Positions 1,835-55,960 of a stretch of DNA of 64,000 nt are shown in pieces (the stretch's first letter is position 1; each line of letters starts with the position of its first letter). The DNA is from Candidatus Altimarinota bacterium (GTDB taxonomy: Bacteria > Patescibacteriota > Gracilibacteria > BD1-5 > UBA6164). Under the pieces are notes generated by a model. The model made no database searches. It was not told where the DNA came from and worked only from the letters and a program-made list of their open reading frames with translations. Where the stretch lies: contig CALREY010000004.1 of NCBI GenBank assembly GCA_943356435.1, forward strand, positions 1 through 64,000. The letters are read 5' to 3'. The position numbers and the translations under genes are program-made.

Positions 1835-4800
1835 TTATCTAACTAATTGATATCAATTTCCTCACCATCATATAGCTGTTCAAGATCTATTATCATAAGC
1901 TGCAGAAGCTGCACTAGTTGTACTTGCAGCATTTTGAGCATCATAACAACCAAAATAAAGTGTTGAACTAGCATGAATTCAAGTAAGAATTCACCATGAA
2001 CCAGAAGTAGTATACAATGCTCATCAACATGCTTGATAAGTAAATCAAGTTAATGCTGTTGCTCAGAATGTTCTTTGCATATTAGTATAAAAATTTGTAT
2101 TATATCAACATGTATCAGTTACTCAGTGATTAGAATACCATGATACTGCTGTGTTTCTATTATATATTGTTTGATAACCATTACATATATTCCATACTTG
2201 AGTAGGATTTAGAGCATTCCAAGTAGTATCAGCTAGATTTGCACTTGCTGTAGTTAAACTAGTAAGTGAAGATGCATTATTTGCAGCGGTATTAGTTCAT
2301 ACTAATACGTTATATTGCATTTTTCTAACTAATGTCCAACCTCCTCAATCAGTTGTCATATCACAATATACTTGAAATGCTGCATTTGCATCTGGTTTTA
2401 TCCAATATACTCAGTTTCAAGTAGAATATCAAGCATCCTTTATAGCTTTACAACTCTTACCTGGAAAACTAGATATGCTTCATAGTGAAGTTTCAGTTTC
2501 TTTTTTTACAAATATAGAATATCATCAACTACTTACACAGGCACTTGTAGTAGTAGAATATCAAACTGCTGACGGACAATTTCAATTCCATTTAAATCAA
2601 TAAGTTGCCCAGTTATTTACTCCATAAGAAGTATTTGCTAACCACATACTATTATTACTTGTATTTGCTCACCAATATATTAATGTATCGGTATATCAAG
2701 CTCTACTAAATAGATTATCTTCATATATATATGCTGCATCTGAAGATCCACCATATACTGTTCATAAAAACATATTTTCAAAATTTCACCCATTTTTTAG
2801 ATTAAATATTACATATTTTCAATTTTGATGTACTATTTTTACTTTTGTATAATCTAATGTACTATTTCATAATTTTGCTAAGTCTCAACCACAATTCGTA
2901 GATGTACTAGTACAAGCTGTTCAAGCATTATAAACATTAGTTCAATCATATGAAACTACATTTGATAACAAAGTCCATCAACCAGAACTATTTGTCATAT
3001 CACAATACACTTTGAATGCTGCACTTGCATTTGGTTTTATCCAATATACTCAACTAGAGAATACAGAACCATTCCATGGACTTCAAGCAAGAGTATTTTT
3101 CCAAGTTGATTTATCTATTAAATCATTACAGTTTAGAGGATATTGTTCTACTCAACTAGTATTTTTAAATAAATATCCTGTAGTAGTATTTCAAGACCAT
3201 TGAGAATCACAACTAGTTCATCCATTATTAAAATATCAACTATCACAAGTATATCTACACTCAGTAGTACTAGCTGAAATATTATAAGAAGTAGTAGAAT
3301 TTGCAGGTAACCAAGCAGATCCATTCCATGTTTGGGTATAACTTCATACTGTATTCCATGAAGAATTTGCTGGTTTTGCAGGACATGTATATGTTTGTGT
3401 ATTTGCTACACAATTTCATGCAATATTTGTAGTATTTGCTACTAGACTTGCTGGTCATTGTGTAGTTGTAGTACATGTATAGTTTGTTTTTGTTGCTGTT
3501 ATTGTATTACATGTACTTCCATAATTTCTTGTAGTAGTGAAATTACCAGCATCATCTGCAAATACATTTGTTCCACATACATTGATTGTTGCACTTGCTC
3601 AAGCTGCTCAAAAACTTCAACTAACTGTATAATTATTTATAGTCCAATGTGCATAATATGTGATATTATCTATTACATTTGTTGCTGTTGTTATTAGTGT
3701 TCAACCACTTATCAATGTAAACCATCCATCAAATGTATATCCTGTTTTAAATACTGTTGATAGTACTCATACTGCTGTATTATAATCTACATTTTTTGTA
3801 GTTGGACTTGGTGTTCATCCTCCATTTTCATCAAATGTTACTATATATTGTCTCGTTGCACTACAATTTGCAGTTGTTGCTCATGTTGATGAACATGTCC
3901 AAGTATATGATCATGCTGCTATTGTTACCGAACTTGATGTTCATACACTACATAAATTTGTAGATGGTACATTTGTTTGTGATGTTCAATCTGTACTTCA
4001 ACATACTCAGTTTTGTAACCATTGTGAGTAGAATGTTGTATCTGTTGTTATTGTTGTTCATGTAGAAATTTGTGTTCATCCACTAGTTTGTGTATACCAT
4101 CCATTGAATGTATATCATGCTCTTGTTGGATTACTTGCTAATGTTCATACTGCTGTATTATATGTCACACTTTTACTTGTTGGTGTATGACCTGTTCCTC
4201 AATTTCCATCAAATGTTACTGTATAATCATTTATACTCCATTGTGCATAGTATGTTGTATCTGTTGTTATAGTTGTTCCTGTTGTGATTTGTGTTCAGCC
4301 ACTTGTTAGTGTATACCATCATGTAAATGTATATCATGCTTTAGTTGGATTACTTGGAAGTGTTCATACTGCTGTATTGTATGTCACACTTTTACTTGTT
4401 GGTGTATGACCTGATCCTCCATTTCCATCAAATGTTACTGTAAGCATATTTGCATCACAGATTGTTCCATTCCATGTATATCATGAATCACAATTATAAT
4501 CACATGTTGCTTGAGTTTCTCACCAGTTTGTACTTGGTGTCCATGCATTTCAATCCCATGTTTGAGTATATGTTGTTGCTGTACTTGCTGTTGCATTATT
4601 TGGGATACTTCATCCACAATTTGCACTTTGTGTATTGGCTACACAGCTACTTCCATTCCATGTATAGTTTAGGTTACATATGAAGTTACATGTACTTGTA
4701 CTACTTGTTACATTAAATTCTCAGATTTCTATTGGTAACCATGTTGTTCCATTCCATGTTTGTGTTATGTTATTTGCTGTATTCCAATGTGCATCTGTTG

Positions 4801-6145
4801 GTAGGCTTGTACAATTTGTTGTTTGTGTATCTGCTGTACAACTTGTTCCATTCCAGCTATAGTTTGTATCACATGTAAATGTACACAATCATGGTGTTGT
4901 ATTATGTAGCCAATTTGTACTTACACTTTGGCTTGTTGCTGTTGAGTGTGCATTACTTGGTACTGTATTTCCACATATATCTTGTACACATGCTCATGCT
5001 TGTTCTACATAGCCATTTGTTGTACAATTTGTATTTATATTTTCATTTGATATTTGGATGTTTCAGTTATTACATACTGCTAGGGCTCCATAACTATTTA
5101 TTCCATTTGAGATATTTACTGTTTTTGTTACACTCTCTCATAGACCATGTGCTATATTTCCATATGTATATCCATTTTCTGTTCATCATTCACAATTTAA
5201 AAATGTTAATGATGATTCACTTAATGTTTGTTTTAAATTATTACTTACTAATGCTCTTGAGATTAATTTACTTGCATTATTTGGTGCGAATAAATTTATA
5301 TCTGTATTTACTAATTCTTTATAGTTTTCATTTGTTTCTAATATTGTTCCGCTATAGTTTTCTTGTAGATTCTTTAGCATTGTTATTCTGTTGTTTTCAC
5401 TTTCTGATAGTGTATTACATCACAGATTATCTGTATAAGCTACTAATTTATTTGGTGTAAATTCAAATCATCAATCATATTTGAATTTACTTGTTTTAAA
5501 TGAGCTTGGTAGATTTTCATATCAATTAAATACTAGGCTTTTGTTATTTATTATTTCTAGTAAATCTGTTCATGTGCTTGTATCATTTGTTACTATCGTT
5601 GGAAGTGATAGTATATCACATATTGTTCATGATAGGGTTTTTATCATTTTTCAGTTATATGATCATAACACCATTGCTTTTGTTGTTGTTTCTCAGGCAT
5701 TGGCTTGAAGCTTCCCCTTCCCTAATTTTAGGGAAGGTTGGGATGGGTTAAGTACTATTTCATCTCATTCTATGATTCATCACAACTCATATTCATTTCT
5801 ATTTCATGATACTGAATATGTATATTCTTTTTCTGTTAATGGGTCTAGAGGTAATCTATCTATTTTTGATATATTTGTTTTCAATGTTTCTCCATATACT
5901 CATTGTGACCATACTATTGATCATGAATATGTGATATTCACTCCATTTGTAGGCTCAGGATATTTACCTGCTTCTAATTCATATAGTTCTAATCATGATT
6001 TAATTGTTGATACATCACTTATTCTCACTGCATCTCTTGATTGTTCACTATATCATTGCAGACTAATAAACGCAATTGTTCATAAAATTGCTAATATTGC
6101 TATTGTTACTATTAGTTCTACTAATGTAAAAGCTTTTTTATTCAT
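1835..6145 (-). CDS. giant prepilin-type surface adhesin with InlB-like and fibrinogen-like domains
   Basis: 1436 residues, one open frame with UGA as Gly. It starts MNKKAFTLVELIVTIAILAI, a prepilin cleavage/methylation signal with only a short leader. Residues 1-270 match the paralog at 14695-17133. A Cys-rich part with repeated YTWNG-x-x-C units follows (about 400-570). Next are several repeats of about 73 residues of the Listeria-Bacteroides (InlB B) type, with VTFDGNGG and GYTFTGWYT motifs (about 565-830). Two fibrinogen-like modules with VYWIKP and YCDMT-GGW (about 1010-1060 and 1235-1270) complete it, and it ends GGNGYQLVR. The architecture implies a surface protein assembled or exported through the type IV pilus machinery that binds a host or neighbour surface; binding is inference. 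Residues around 133-146 are encoded by a palindromic element. Confidence 0.85.
4095..4440 (-). repeat. tandem adhesin repeat, about 219 bp unit
   Basis: Near-identical blocks, such as GTCACACTTTTACTTGTTGG near 4164 and again near 4383, lie 219 bp apart. They encode consecutive InlB-type repeats of 73 residues. Confidence 0.75.
5711..5750. repeat. palindromic element inside the giant adhesin
   Basis: CTTCCCCTTCCCTAATTTTA followed by GGGAAGGTTGGGATGGGTTAA. It is read in frame on the minus strand as LNPSQPSLKLGKGKL, where the paralog at 14695-17133 has the shorter MNNNSFLKV. Confidence 0.85.
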
Positions 6146-12760: not shown

Positions 12761-12798
12761 AATCCAAAAAATATAAATATTTTTTGGATTTTTTTTAA
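12761..12798. terminator. convergent terminator
   Basis: AATCCAAAAAATAT pairs with ATATTTTTTGGATT, followed by T residues, between the convergent giant gene and cysS. Confidence 0.8.
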
Positions 12799-14348
12799 AT
12801 TTTTTCCACATAACTTCCATCTCTAGAATCAACTATCTTGTATCCTGCTTCTAATAATTCATCTCTCAATTTATCTGCTAATGCAAAGTCTTTATTCTTT
12901 TTTGCAGTATTTCTTGCTTCAAATAATTCATTTATTTCACTTGGTATTTCTTCATTTACAACAACATCAAAATCAACAATAGCTAATACTTGATTGAATG
13001 TTCTAAGCATATCTAGTAAACTAGATAATTCTCAGATAGAAAATAATTTTTCTCTAATAGCTGTATTAGCAAATTTCAAAAAATTATGGAATACTACTAA
13101 TGCTTCAGGTATATTGAAATCATCTTCTAAATAATACATATATTCATGAATATAATCTTGCATAGTTTCTCTGAAATCTCTAGAAACCATGGCATTATTA
13201 TCTGATTTTTCTATTTCTCTATTTATGTTTTTTACTAGTTCATCTACTGAATTTATTACACTTATATTTGAGTCTATTTTATCAAATGTAAAATTTACTT
13301 CACTATTATATTTAGCATTCATAAATGATAATCTAATAGCTCTATATAATACACTTGAAGTTACTTGTCCCCCTCCTTTATTTAAGGGAGGGGTTAGGGG
13401 TGGGTTAAGGTATTTTTCTTCTAAGTCTTTGATTCTATAAAAATTATTTGATGATTTTGCCATTTTTTTACCATCTACCATCAAATGCCCACTATGTAAC
13501 CAATATCTAGAGAATTCTTTTCTAGTACATGCTTCTGTTTGTGCTATTTCATTTTGATGATGAGGAAAAATCAAATCAACTCCTCACATATGAATATCTA
13601 TCTGTGCTCAGAAATATTTCATATTACATGCACTACATTCTATATGCCAACCTGGTCTTCATTTCAATACTACTTTTTCTTTTTTTGGGAGACTTTCTAC
13701 TTGTCCCCCCTCCTTAGTAAGGAGGGGGCTAGGGGGTGGTGTTATCGTAAACTCTTCATTCCAAAATACTTCTCCATCAGATTCTTTCCAAGCTTTCCAT
13801 AGTACGAAATCACTCACATTTTCTTTATCATATTCATCACTATCTACTCTAGCTCAATGTTTCAAACAACACATATCTAGATTTGCTAATTTACCATATT
13901 TTTTAAATGATTTAACATCAAAATAAATACTTCAATCATCACCTAAATAAGCATTTTTTCTATTCAACATAGTTTGTATCATTCTAACCATTTCTGGTAT
14001 TAGAGTACTTATTGGTACTACATTATCAGCTGGAATAATATTTAATTTATCCAAATCACTCAAAAAAATATCAGTATATTTTCTAGTAAAAGTCTGCAAA
14101 TCTTCTCCTGCAACTTGTGAATCTCTAATAGTTTTATCATCTATATCTGTGATATTCATTACTGTTTTTACATTGTATCACAAAAATCTAAGTGTTCTCA
14201 CAACTATATCTTCAAATACAAATGTTCTCAAATTACCTATATGAGCATAATTATAAACTGTAGGTCCACAATAATACACTTTTACTTCTCTACTACTTAA
14301 TGGTTTAAAATCTTCTAATTTTCTAGTTTTGGTATTATATAATTGCAT
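12795..14348 (-). CDS. cysS: cysteinyl-tRNA synthetase with two in-frame element insertions
   Basis: 517 residues. It charges tRNA-Cys with cysteine in the cytosol. Visible are [13 protein letters not shown] (zinc Cys and HIGH motif), [20 protein letters not shown] and [10 protein letters not shown] (zinc ligands), KMAKS (the KMSKS loop) and a C-terminal anticodon domain with [18 protein letters not shown]. Two segments are foreign to the family. [15 protein letters not shown] lies just before the [10 protein letters not shown] motif, and [15 protein letters not shown] lies between LEEKYL and [11 protein letters not shown], shortly after KMAKS. Both are translated palindromic elements in frame, with the catalytic motifs intact, so the enzyme is probably active. 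Its start lies after the stop of the upstream ferredoxin-like gene (TAAG-ATG), so the two are co-transcribed. Confidence 0.95.
13366..13409. repeat. palindromic element in cysS (copy 1)
   Basis: CCCCCTCCTTTATTTAAGGG then AGGGGTTAGGGGTGGGTTAA. Read on the minus strand it gives [15 protein letters not shown] inside CysRS without breaking the frame. Confidence 0.95.
13701..13741. repeat. palindromic element in cysS (copy 2)
   Basis: CCCCCCTCCTTAGTAAGGAG then GGGGCTAGGGGGTGGT. On the minus strand it gives [15 protein letters not shown]. It nearly matches the intergenic copy at about 55861-55895. Confidence 0.95.
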
Positions 14349-14694: not shown

Positions 14695-17133
14695 TTATCT
14701 AATAAATAATGAATTGATATTAATAGTTACATTTCATGCTCAACAATGAGTTCAGACTCTAGCTACTGTTTTTGAAATATTAAATGTAGCATTTACTGTA
14801 GAATTAGTACTTAAAGTTCAAGTATTATATACATTATATTTTGCATTTCATATCAGTCAACTAGAGTAATAATTTCAAAATCAATTAGGACTTGATGCAC
14901 AATAACTAGTTAAATTAGTAGTTATTGGATAATAAATATTTCAATCTCATAATGTATTTCACAATGCAGAAAATGGTCAACAATTAGGAAGTGTAGCATT
15001 TGCTTTTAAAAAATAGTTTACATATGATTCAGTAGGATTATATAGATTATACATTGTTTGATTTAAACTCCATAAATTAACTCATCAAGCTGCTCAGCAA
15101 GTACTTGGACTACTATAACTATGTGTAACTAAATTTCAATTTCAATTATATGAATTATTAATTCAACTAGAATCTAATAGATTTCAGCTTGTTATAGAAC
15201 TTGTATCGATTCTCATCCATCAACCTCACTCAGTTTTCATATCACAATAAACTGGATATCAAATATTATTATTTAGAGGATCAATTACATAGTATCAACT
15301 ATTTAAGCATTGATTAGTTCAATTTCAGCAAGTTCATGATCATCTATTACTTCAATCATTATTAGTATTTGCTTGAAGATTGTATTCTTTGCATGATTGT
15401 AATTTGTCTCAATTAGTTTTCTTCCATCAATTAGTTATACTACCAGATCATGAAAAATATCAAGAAGTAATAGTTGTCTCATTTCATGGAAAAATATCAG
15501 ATGGAACTGTGAAATTTCAAGAATATCTTGCCATTCATTTAGTCAACCTAAGTTCATCAATATAATTATTACCATTTAATGTCCATGCTCAAGTATAATG
15601 TCAAATTTTGATAGTATTAGTAGCTCAAAAATTTGAAGTACTAGGTAAATATCCTGAGAATTGTCAATTAGTAGATATACGAATATTTCAATTAACTGCA
15701 TCCCTCTGTACTGCCATATGTAACCACTGCTTAGTTGGTATTACACTTATTGGCGAAGCATCTAATCAAGAATAAGAATTTCTAATTACATGTCTTAAAT
15801 TACTTGTAGAATTCCAGTTAGTAAATCCAACAGCAAATCAACCAGCTCATTCTGTTCCATTTCAATAAGATATTAATCAATTTTGATATCATTGAGTTGG
15901 TATAGCATCATGGTAAACCCAAAATTCTAATGTAAAAGGCTGATTTCACAATACAAAATCATTGCTTGTTAAAGAAATATATCCATTTGTTCAATTAGTT
16001 ATCAAACTAGAACCTCCAAATTTAGATTGTGCATTTGATAGTCTAGATACTCCATTATTAGTAAATTCATGTCATTTTTCATCTATATAACCTGTTGATC
16101 ATGCAGCTCAATCCATATGCATTAATAATACTACATCACTAATATGTTCATCTGCTGGAATTATAATACTAGTTGGAGTATTTGATATATTAGAACTTCA
16201 TGAATTAGTACTTGTAATTATATTTCATCATCATAAAACATTATTAGTAATAATTTTAGAAAAATTAATTACTTCAATACTAGGATTTTGTTCATTAATA
16301 TCTAATGATAATATATTTTTTATATCTCATTCGTTTTGTAATAAACTTCAACTATAAGAATCTTGTAATCATTTTAATAAAGTAATTCTTGAAGAATTAT
16401 TTTCACTATTTATCAATGATGTACAACTTCATGTATCAGAATATGCTATCAATTTATTAGGAGTAAAAGAAAATCATCAATCATATTTGAATTTACTTGT
16501 TTTAAATGAACTTGGCAAATTTTTATATCATTTATAAACAAAAGAGTTATTTGAAACTATTTGAGTTAAATCTGTAATACTTGTATCATTTGTAATTATA
16601 GTAGGAAGTGATAATACATTACATAATGTACCACTGAAACTTTTTGTCATTTTTCAATTATAATTTCAAGTTACATATGCTGTTGCAGATATTTCTCATG
16701 CTTGTACTTTTAAAAATGAATTATTATTCATTGAAATAGTATCTCACTCAATAATTCATCCTAATTGATACTCATATTTATTTGCTGTAACTGAATAAGT
16801 ATATTCTTTATTACTAATTGGATCTAAAGGAATTTTATCCAATTTAGATACATTTTTATAAACAGTTTCACCAAATGTTCACTGATTCCAAACTATAGAA
16901 CCACTATAAGTAATATCTACTCAATTTGTTGGGACTGGATATTTTCAAGCATCTATTTGAAACAATTCTAAACTAGATTTAATACTTGATATATCAGATA
17001 TTCTAGAACTATCTCTTGCATTTTCACTATATCATTGTAATGAAATAAATGCTATAAATGATAGTATTGTAAGTATAGTTATTACAATAATTAATTCTAC
17101 AAGTGTGAAGGCTTTTGTTTTTTGTATCTTCAT
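14695..17133 (-). CDS. prepilin-type surface protein with LamG-like and fibrinogen-like domains
   Basis: 812 residues. It begins MKIQKTKAFTLVELIIVITI, a prepilin signal and N-terminal helix, and shares its first ~270 residues with the 1436-residue adhesin (YSGSIVWNQGTFGETV, LDKIPLDP, GGIIEGD, LPSSFKTSKFKYDGG). After residue ~340 comes a concanavalin/LamG-like module (VVLLMHMDG, FTLEFWVYHDA, KQWLHMAVQRD). A fibrinogen-like YCDMKTEGGGW module follows near residue 620. It probably uses the pilin machinery to reach the surface and binds glycans or proteins there; binding is inferred from domain type. It lacks the InlB repeats and the palindromic insertion of its paralog. Confidence 0.85.
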
Positions 17134-40620: not shown

Positions 40621-40623
40621 TTT

Positions 40624-40657
40624 TCCCCTCCTTACTAGGGAGGGGTAGGGGTGGGTT
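40624..40657. repeat. palindromic element giving the hemW stop codon
   Basis: CCCCTCCTTACTAGGGAGGG then GTAGGGGTGGGTTAA. The terminal TTA is the TAA stop of hemW on the minus strand. Confidence 0.85.
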
Positions 40658-41828
40658 AAATCAATTCTCTCAATATATAATCCAAAAACATTACTCATCT
40701 ATCAGTGAGTTTCAGTACATCATCTTCTAAATACAATAATCAATCATTTTCAAATTGTAATAATTTATTGTATTCTAATTTTTCATATATTTCTTTATCT
40801 AATCAGCTTGTTCTAAGTCAAAACATTATTTTTTCAATAAATAAATCATCAACACTCAATACTTCTAAATCATTTGTAATTCAAGAATAATAATGTACAA
40901 ATTCTTCACTATTACTAAATCTAATATTATTTACGAAACTATGAGCTCATAATCCAAATCAAATCACATTTGAATGATTCCAATAAGACATATTATGTTT
41001 ACACTCATATCATTCTCTAGCAAAATTAGAAATTTCATAAGAATTAAATCATCTATTTTTTAAGTACTCTTTTATTTCTATATATTCTCATAAATAATCA
41101 TCTTCAGATATTCATATATTTTTCCAATCATTTGGATACACTACATTTTGAAATTTGCTATCTAGATTTCCCTCCTCATTAAAGGCTTCTCACTTATCAT
41201 AGTATTCTTCTAGCATATAAACTGAAATATGGTTTATGAAATCATAATTATCCAAGATATATTCTATATCTTTTTTTATTTCTCATTTTTGTGCATGAGG
41301 TAATCAGATAATAAAATCAACTGAGATATTTATAATCCCTCCCCCTTCGGGTACTCCCTTTGGTAAAGGGAGAAATATATCCTTAATATTTTCCAAAGCC
41401 TGAATAATATCTCATTTTTCTCATCTTCATATTTCTTTTAGAGTATCAGTATTAAGGCTCTGTACTCAGATACTTATCCTATTTACTCATGATTTAATCC
41501 ATCATTCTATATTTTCTTTAGTTACTGTAATAGGTGTTGCTTCTATATTTATTTCTATTTTTTCATCCAATTCATGTTTATTTTTTATCGTATTTATAAT
41601 CTTTTCTAATTGATTAATACTCAAAACACTAGGTGTTCCTCATCAAAAATATATACTATGCAACTTATTATTATCCAAACTATATGATGATTTATTTATT
41701 TCATCTACTAGTTTTTCTACATATAAATTTATTTTTAATAATTCAGAATTTCAAAAAGATGCAAATCTACAATATTTACATTTACTACTACAAAACGGAA
41801 TATGTATATAACAAAAATTGTTTTTCAT
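40656..41828 (-). CDS. hemW: HemW-like radical SAM protein with an in-frame element insertion
   Basis: 390 residues. CYIHIPFCSSKCKYCRF has the CxxxCxxC cluster for the 4Fe-4S radical SAM centre. IYFGGGTPS, NIEATPITVTKENIEGW, GVNRISIGVQSLN and NISVDFIIGLPHAQKG follow, then ISVYMLEEYY and a C-terminal HemW-type domain. Family members were once called coproporphyrinogen III oxidases but HemW acts as a heme chaperone; no heme biosynthesis gene is in the window. About 13 residues (LPLPKGVPEGGGI) before NISVDFIIGLP come from an in-frame palindromic element at 41335-41374. The catalytic motifs are intact. Confidence 0.85.
41335..41374. repeat. palindromic element inside hemW
   Basis: CTCCCCCTTCGGGTACTCCC then TTTGGTAAAGGGAG. 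The CCCGAAGGGGG part also occurs in the intergenic copy at about 55931-55941, which shows it belongs to the same family. Confidence 0.9.
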
Positions 41829-49068: not shown

Positions 49069-49097
49069 TATGATTATAATTAGAGATTAAAAAATTT

Positions 49098-49200
49098 TGT
49101 CCCCCTCTCAGTCTCCCCCCAAGGGAGAGAAGAAGCTACATTTTTTCATTATTGTTCTATTCCCTTTCTCCCCAGGGGGGAAAGGGTTAGGGATTGGGGG
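49098..49200. repeat. two palindromic elements in the rpoB-rpoC spacer
   Basis: TCCCCCCAAGGGAGAG followed by AAGAAGCTAC, and CCCTTTCTCCCCAGGGGGGA then AAGGGTTAGGGATTGGGGG. They fill nearly all of the 136-base gap between the two RNA polymerase genes. Confidence 0.85.
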
Positions 49201-49204
49201 ATTT

Positions 49205-55736: not shown

Positions 55737-55761
55737 TATATTTTATTATTGGTTAATGATA

Positions 55762-55950
55762 ATCCCCCGGCTTTCTGCCACCCCCTTAATAAGGGGGACT
55801 TTTTTGTAGCTATTTCCTCCCTAATTTTAGGGAGGATTAAGGTGGGTTAAGTATCTATTCCCCCCGCCTTACTAAGGAGGGGGTTAGGGGGTGGTCTGTA
55901 GCTATTTCTTCCTTATACTTAAGGGAAGTACCCGAAGGGGGATGGGATAG
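55762..55950. repeat. dense cluster of four palindromic elements between znuC and znuB
   Basis: Copies include CCACCCCCTTAATAAGGGGG, TTCCTCCCTAATTTTAGGGA, CCCGCCTTACTAAGGAGGGG and TTCCTTATACTTAAGGGAAG. The GTTAGGGGGTGGT tails match the cysS copies and CCCGAAGGGGG matches the hemW copy. No gene lies in this stretch. Confidence 0.9.
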
Positions 55951-55960
55951 TATGATTTAT

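Follow-up and report, generated by a model that had tools for sequence, protein, structure and literature searches.

A palindromic element in frame in the hemW gene of a Gracilibacteria genome and its probable mover, a DUF559 nuclease

The hemW gene of this genome contains a short segment which is, with near certainty, an in-frame mobile palindrome. In the best overall explanation, which we consider probable, the segment is a solo copy of a mobile family, termed family B, and its mover is a nuclease of the DUF559 type. The HemW element belongs to large palindrome families for which no mover had been known. What is new is a candidate for this mover, i.e., the link between the palindromes and the DUF559 nuclease. 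The distribution of the elements argues for their mobility, and from association and co-variation, which support this well, we infer that DUF559 moves them.

The window, i.e., the whole stretch of 64,000 nucleotides that was analysed, comes from a 1.55-Mb genome (G000) with 25% GC, assembled in 30 contigs at a completeness of about 90%. TGA encodes glycine in this genome (NCBI table 25), and long open reading frames (ORFs) are found everywhere under code 25. This Gracilibacteria-type code holds throughout positions 1-64000, where most genes are missed by standard-code ORF calling. Read with table 11, the hemW region yields no HemW ORF; code 25 is needed. The features at hemW are the following:

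40656..41828, minus strand: hemW-like radical SAM gene, 390 aa under code 25, host of the insertion
41333..41372, minus strand: family-B palindromic element in hemW, in frame, encoding LPLPKGVPEGGGI (HMM 46.9 bits)
41354..41372, minus strand: first hairpin of the HemW element, CTCCCTTTACCAAAGGGAG, 8-bp stem (DNA fold -9.1 kcal/mol, z -2.2)
41342..41351, minus strand: second small hairpin, CCC-GAAG-GGG, inside the recurrent CCCGAAGGGGG core (core search and fold)
40622..40658, plus strand: family-A-like element immediately downstream of hemW

The protein is identified as HemW by TIGR00539 (220 bits, above the curated NCBIfam cut-off of 205.4). The element is a 40-bp double hairpin, and its Pro/Gly-rich peptide of 13 residues is encoded at 41334-41372 on the minus strand. 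The first-pass annotation had placed an in-frame element at 41335-41374, which is right to within 2 bases, and had it interrupt a normally short link before the NISVDFIIGLP motif. Alignment of HemW homologs across the insertion point bears this out. The segment is exactly absent, with the flanks aligned, from HemW of G004, G007 and G041, which are genomes without B elements, and likewise from HemW of other genera of the family, e.g., G035 (locus L048). In G004, G041 and G035, the flanks are in register and the loop from the helix to the ISVDFIIGL strand lacks 14 codons; in the codon alignment, the element gives HemW a net gain of 14 codons over empty homologs. At the same site, G002 has a short unrelated loop and G001 an unrelated loop of similar length. 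Among the relatives aligned, the sole homolog sharing the element, in a slightly diverged form (LPFTKGVPEVGGGG), belongs to the congener G003; the insertion is thus older than the split of G000 and G003. Conservation of the segment where such elements are absent was not found, the sole sharer being itself a genome with 52 B-core matches. Judging from the known radical-SAM barrel fold, the insertion site is probably a loop between helix and strand, remote from the active-site face.

The core had also been said to recur near 55931, in an intergenic copy of the same family and of a different variant. Indeed, the window has exactly two occurrences of CCCGAAGGGGG (41341-41351, minus strand, and 55931-55941, plus strand; expected 0.00 from 100 shuffles), and the second copy, which is intergenic, has an ABC permease ORF on one side and an ABC ATPase ORF on the other. 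The wording is fair, as the first stem at 55.9 kb reads TTCCTT...AAGGGAAG versus CTCCCTTT...AAAGGGAG in HemW. Across the whole of G000, GTACCCGAAGGGGGA is found at 17 sites with at most 2 mismatches, and at none in the reversed control. Intergenic elements of the window include:

55908..55949, plus strand: intergenic family-B variant CTTCCTTATACTTAAGGGAAGTACCCGAAGGGGGATGGGATA (core searches)
55857..55895, plus strand: family-A element, intergenic, beside the B copy
55758..55800, minus strand: family-C-like element, intergenic
49156..49201, plus strand: family-D-like element between the rpoB and rpoC ORFs
49095..49139, minus strand: further GC-rich palindromic element between the rpoB and rpoC ORFs

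Four elements of different families (C-like, a small one, A and B) are gathered within 200 bp (55758-55954) between two ABC transporter genes, and the space separating the rpoB-like ORF from the rpoC-like ORF is filled by two palindromic elements (49095-49201).

Seed-built profiles, applied with E up to 0.01 to 1.49 Mb of G000 joined from stretches, yielded about 125 elements, each about 37-46 bp long, in four families (A 60, B 31, C 19, D 15). Most copies are intergenic. ORFs wholly contain 31 of the 125 (in 25 genes), a strong depletion in view of 89% coding sequence (P 5e-63). Two in-frame elements each are found in CysS, Mfd, UvrB, PBP1C and an N-glycosylase; MiaB, CiaB and an ABC ATPase are further hosts. 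The earlier remark that a second housekeeping enzyme is hit in frame therefore holds, with two elements in CysS and 31 inside ORFs genome-wide. Solo family-D elements lie in frame in both orientations and give the same two peptide forms as the ends of full units, described below. The in-ORF family-A elements of G000 are antisense in 15 of 16 cases though sense frames are also open, which suggests selection on the encoded peptide.

The insertion sites in cysS are particularly informative:

12795..14348, minus strand: cysS (cysteine--tRNA ligase), host of two elements
13704..13740, plus strand: family-A element in cysS, in frame, the gene running antisense to the element
13368..13403, plus strand: family-A element in cysS, in frame, the gene running antisense to the element

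The site at 13704..13740 holds A in G000 and G003, B in G002 and a decayed C-like element in G001, and is empty in G004. At 13368..13403, G000 and G003 carry A, G002 carries a different family, and G001 and G004 have no element. Occupancy differs by congener, so the sites have been re-used by different families, always in frame.

With at most 2 mismatches, the B core is found 56 times in G002, 52 times in G003 and 13 times in G000, with zero matches in reversed controls. Fewer are found in other genera of the family, and none, at the same tolerance, in the sampled genomes from other families of the order. Exact B cores also occur in Bacteroidales, Parcubacteria, Phycisphaerae, Elusimicrobiota and others. 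DUF559 is present in 13 of the 14 other-group genomes holding an exact B core and in 2 of 14 control genomes; the former count is not independent, as seven of the 14 were chosen for a DUF559 already seen near an element.

The link to DUF559 (PF04480) is seen directly in G002 and G003, where B elements form inverted pairs about 450 bp apart which enclose a DUF559 gene for a protein of about 125 aa, the family-B protein measuring 123-125 aa. The pairs of G002 are exact over 42-45 bp, 45 bp being identical in several copies, and the pair of G003 is imperfect (score 39). Of the 15 DUF559 matches of G002, twelve have an A or B element no more than 120 bp away (P 2e-22). Each of the three DUF559 genes of G000 is bracketed by inverted elements, which belong to family A or to another family. 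No B-flanked DUF559 is found in G000 as assembled (about 90% complete), and its B copies may be orphans. At four loci of G002 (L305, L306, L184 and L279), the B-DUF559-B unit is embedded in a larger repeat whose outer inverted repeats measure 23 bp (GGCATAATCTAAATTTTGGTGGA). Given this larger repeat, the copy number of the unit may be owed to something else.

Flanks were tested around the DUF559 domain, because the domain sits inside larger ORFs and stop-to-stop ORF ends missed many pairs. An inverted-flank score of 18 proved too strict for diverse families, being reached at 5 of 29 phylum-wide loci. A hairpin test with matched controls was designed after the alignments from the score-18 test had been viewed. 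It found a GC-rich hairpin in both flanks at 21 of the 29 phylum-wide DUF559 loci, which were not selected for elements (control windows 0/1022), at 9 of 28 loci of order relatives (0/1005) and at 10 of 24 loci in other phyla (0/859). Several DUF559 loci had no flanking palindromes by the tests used. In G000, 21 of 1285 genes reached the score of 18, including all three DUF559 genes; among the translations inspected, the others were diverse, with no second enzyme family prominent. Moreover, the nuclease tree follows the flanking palindrome and not the host gene, with support of 0.989 for A, 0.99 for a B-containing clade and 0.956 for D. Nuclease and flank similarity are correlated (0/2000 permutations), also among different host genes (r=0.54, 1/2000 permutations).

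The DUF559 profile matches PDB 3hrl (1e-30) and 3r3p, the homing endonuclease I-Bth0305I (5e-6). With an AlphaFold model (pLDDT 86), Foldseek retrieves 3hrl, 3r3p and, weakly, Vsr (1vsr). Nine aligned DUF559 proteins from several phyla share invariant Arg, Glu, Asp and Asp-Gly positions. A Caulobacter DUF559 protein has been described as Vsr-like, with a proposed role in mismatch repair (PMC12907096). In the open literature naming DUF559 or PF04480, seen mostly as titles and abstracts, no description of palindrome-flanked copies was found.

The whole element-DUF559-element unit, with its inverted ends, is also found in frame inside RecG, RecQ, MnmA, TsaD, MiaB and RsmF of relatives. Host domain and DUF559 are recognised in one ORF by Pfam and NCBIfam, and no intein domain was matched in the six host proteins scanned with these libraries. 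The RecG unit occupies the same place in eleven aligned loci with at least three palindrome families. RecG and RecQ of G000 have no insert, and those of the congeners G001 (RecG) and G003 (RecQ) are filled, which gives empty/filled pairs within one genus. No clear target-site duplication is found at the RecG, RecQ, CysS and HemW sites, whose exact boundaries cannot be fixed.

The full form of the element would thus be a DUF559 nuclease gene between one element and its inverted copy, nuclease lineage and palindrome family going together. The DUF559 protein, as a relative of I-Bth0305I and Vsr, may recognise the palindrome and/or the target and cut DNA, and repair after the cut would copy the element in. 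Solo copies could be spread in trans or be ends that persisted when the nuclease gene was lost. Gene-breaking insertions would be purged, leaving survivors in intergenic regions or in frame in loops. The HemW segment would be such a solo, non-autonomous family-B copy which landed in frame before the NISVDFIIGLP strand, its Pro/Gly-rich 13-residue peptide being tolerated in the loop. A point against copying by DUF559 is that a solo single end is no obvious substrate for a nuclease-driven mechanism. On a wider scale, the balance tips slightly towards a widespread class of bacterial mobile elements, consisting of a minimal DUF559 nuclease of the Vsr/homing type and cognate palindromic ends, which crosses phyla, can place the complete unit, without splicing, in frame within essential proteins and seeds hundreds of solo palindromes, including that of the HemW loop.

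The unit resembles the layout of RAYT genes between inverted REPs (PMC2817692). The palindromes could hence be ordinary REP or MITE sequences moved by a Y1 (RAYT) or DDE transposase, with DUF559 as a frequent passenger. The presence of Y1_Tnp in some related genomes and the outer 23-bp inverted repeat around the G002 units would fit such an origin, which is nonetheless rather unlikely. Y1_Tnp (PF01797) has no match over the cut-off in the B-bearing G000, G001, G002 and G003, in a search for this transposase type; the nuclease lineage follows the palindrome family; and the in-frame units in RecG and other hosts contain only DUF559. A RAYT as mover was rejected, Y1_Tnp being absent above the cut-off from the element-rich congeners.

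We also consider it unlikely that the solo copies are in general scars of full units which inserted in frame and later lost the nuclease gene, one palindrome being left. The two peptide forms of solo family D, equal to the two ends of full units, agree with such a history, as does MiaB, where one relative has a full unit at roughly the position that a solo element takes in G000. The numbers argue against it, since solo copies far outnumber full units in G000 (about 125 to 3), and no intermediate between full unit and solo element is seen in the hemW relatives examined. It is very improbable that the hairpins act as terminators of transcription or as mRNA structures and adjoin small genes such as DUF559 by chance, with a coincidental resemblance in HemW. 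The intergenic position of most copies would suit terminators. In contrast, the pairs are inverted copies of one family, exact over up to 45 bp, the palindromes match the nuclease clade, copies lie in frame within ORFs, and the core arises in zero shuffles.

The DUF559-linked palindrome works like a cross between REP/RAYT systems (in layout) and the Rickettsia palindromic elements, RPE (in its coding insertions), and belongs to neither; a defining feature of each is missing (enzyme type; size and tag). With REP/RAYT (REPtrons; PMC2817692), it shares solo scattered palindromes, an enzyme gene enclosed by an inverted pair of its cognate palindrome and the joint descent of enzyme and palindrome lineages. 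The enzyme here is a PD-(D/E)XK-type DUF559 nuclease and not a Y1 HUH (IS200/IS605-like) transposase, the GTAG end tag is missing from the family A-D consensus, and other proteins can carry the full unit in frame. RPE are protein-coding palindromes (Ogata et al. 2000, reviewed in PMC2229807) and, in Rickettsia and Wolbachia, likewise short, intergenic or in frame in conserved housekeeping genes. However, they measure 105-146 bp versus about 40 bp for the several families of the code-25 genome G000, and are reported without a linked mobility gene, whereas the elements of the G000 type are linked to DUF559. The CGTC repeats show no association with transposase genes (PMC3733652), and the CGTC which marks one end of RPE is missing from the family A-D consensus. 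I-Bth0305I (PDB 3r3p; Vsr-like/EDxHD) is similar in nuclease fold, sequence and the re-use of sites in conserved genes. I-Bth0305I is an intron protein, while DUF559, judged from sequence, stays as an extra domain. GC clusters, or double-hairpin elements, of fungal mitochondria are also GC-rich double hairpins in AT-rich DNA, some of them in coding sequence; they differ in being organellar.

If DUF559 moves the palindromes, a common nuclease family of 'unknown function' would gain a function, and the GC-rich palindromes of many bacterial genomes a mover. A selfish nuclease would persist, unspliced, as an additional domain of essential enzymes. Furthermore, the spread of protein-coding palindromes such as RPE, a long-standing question, would become directly testable.

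Other observations were made in passing. In G000, a strong inverted repeat (score 26) surrounds a small gene resembling four-helix/S23-type proteins (L021, G000:C1:69062-69427). In the window, very large pilin-like proteins with long and repetitive C-terminal parts are encoded at 1835-6145 and 14695-17133, and a palindromic element at 398-435 overlaps a pilin-like ORF (FLPFKKEGGYK) at its N-terminal start and may be read in frame.
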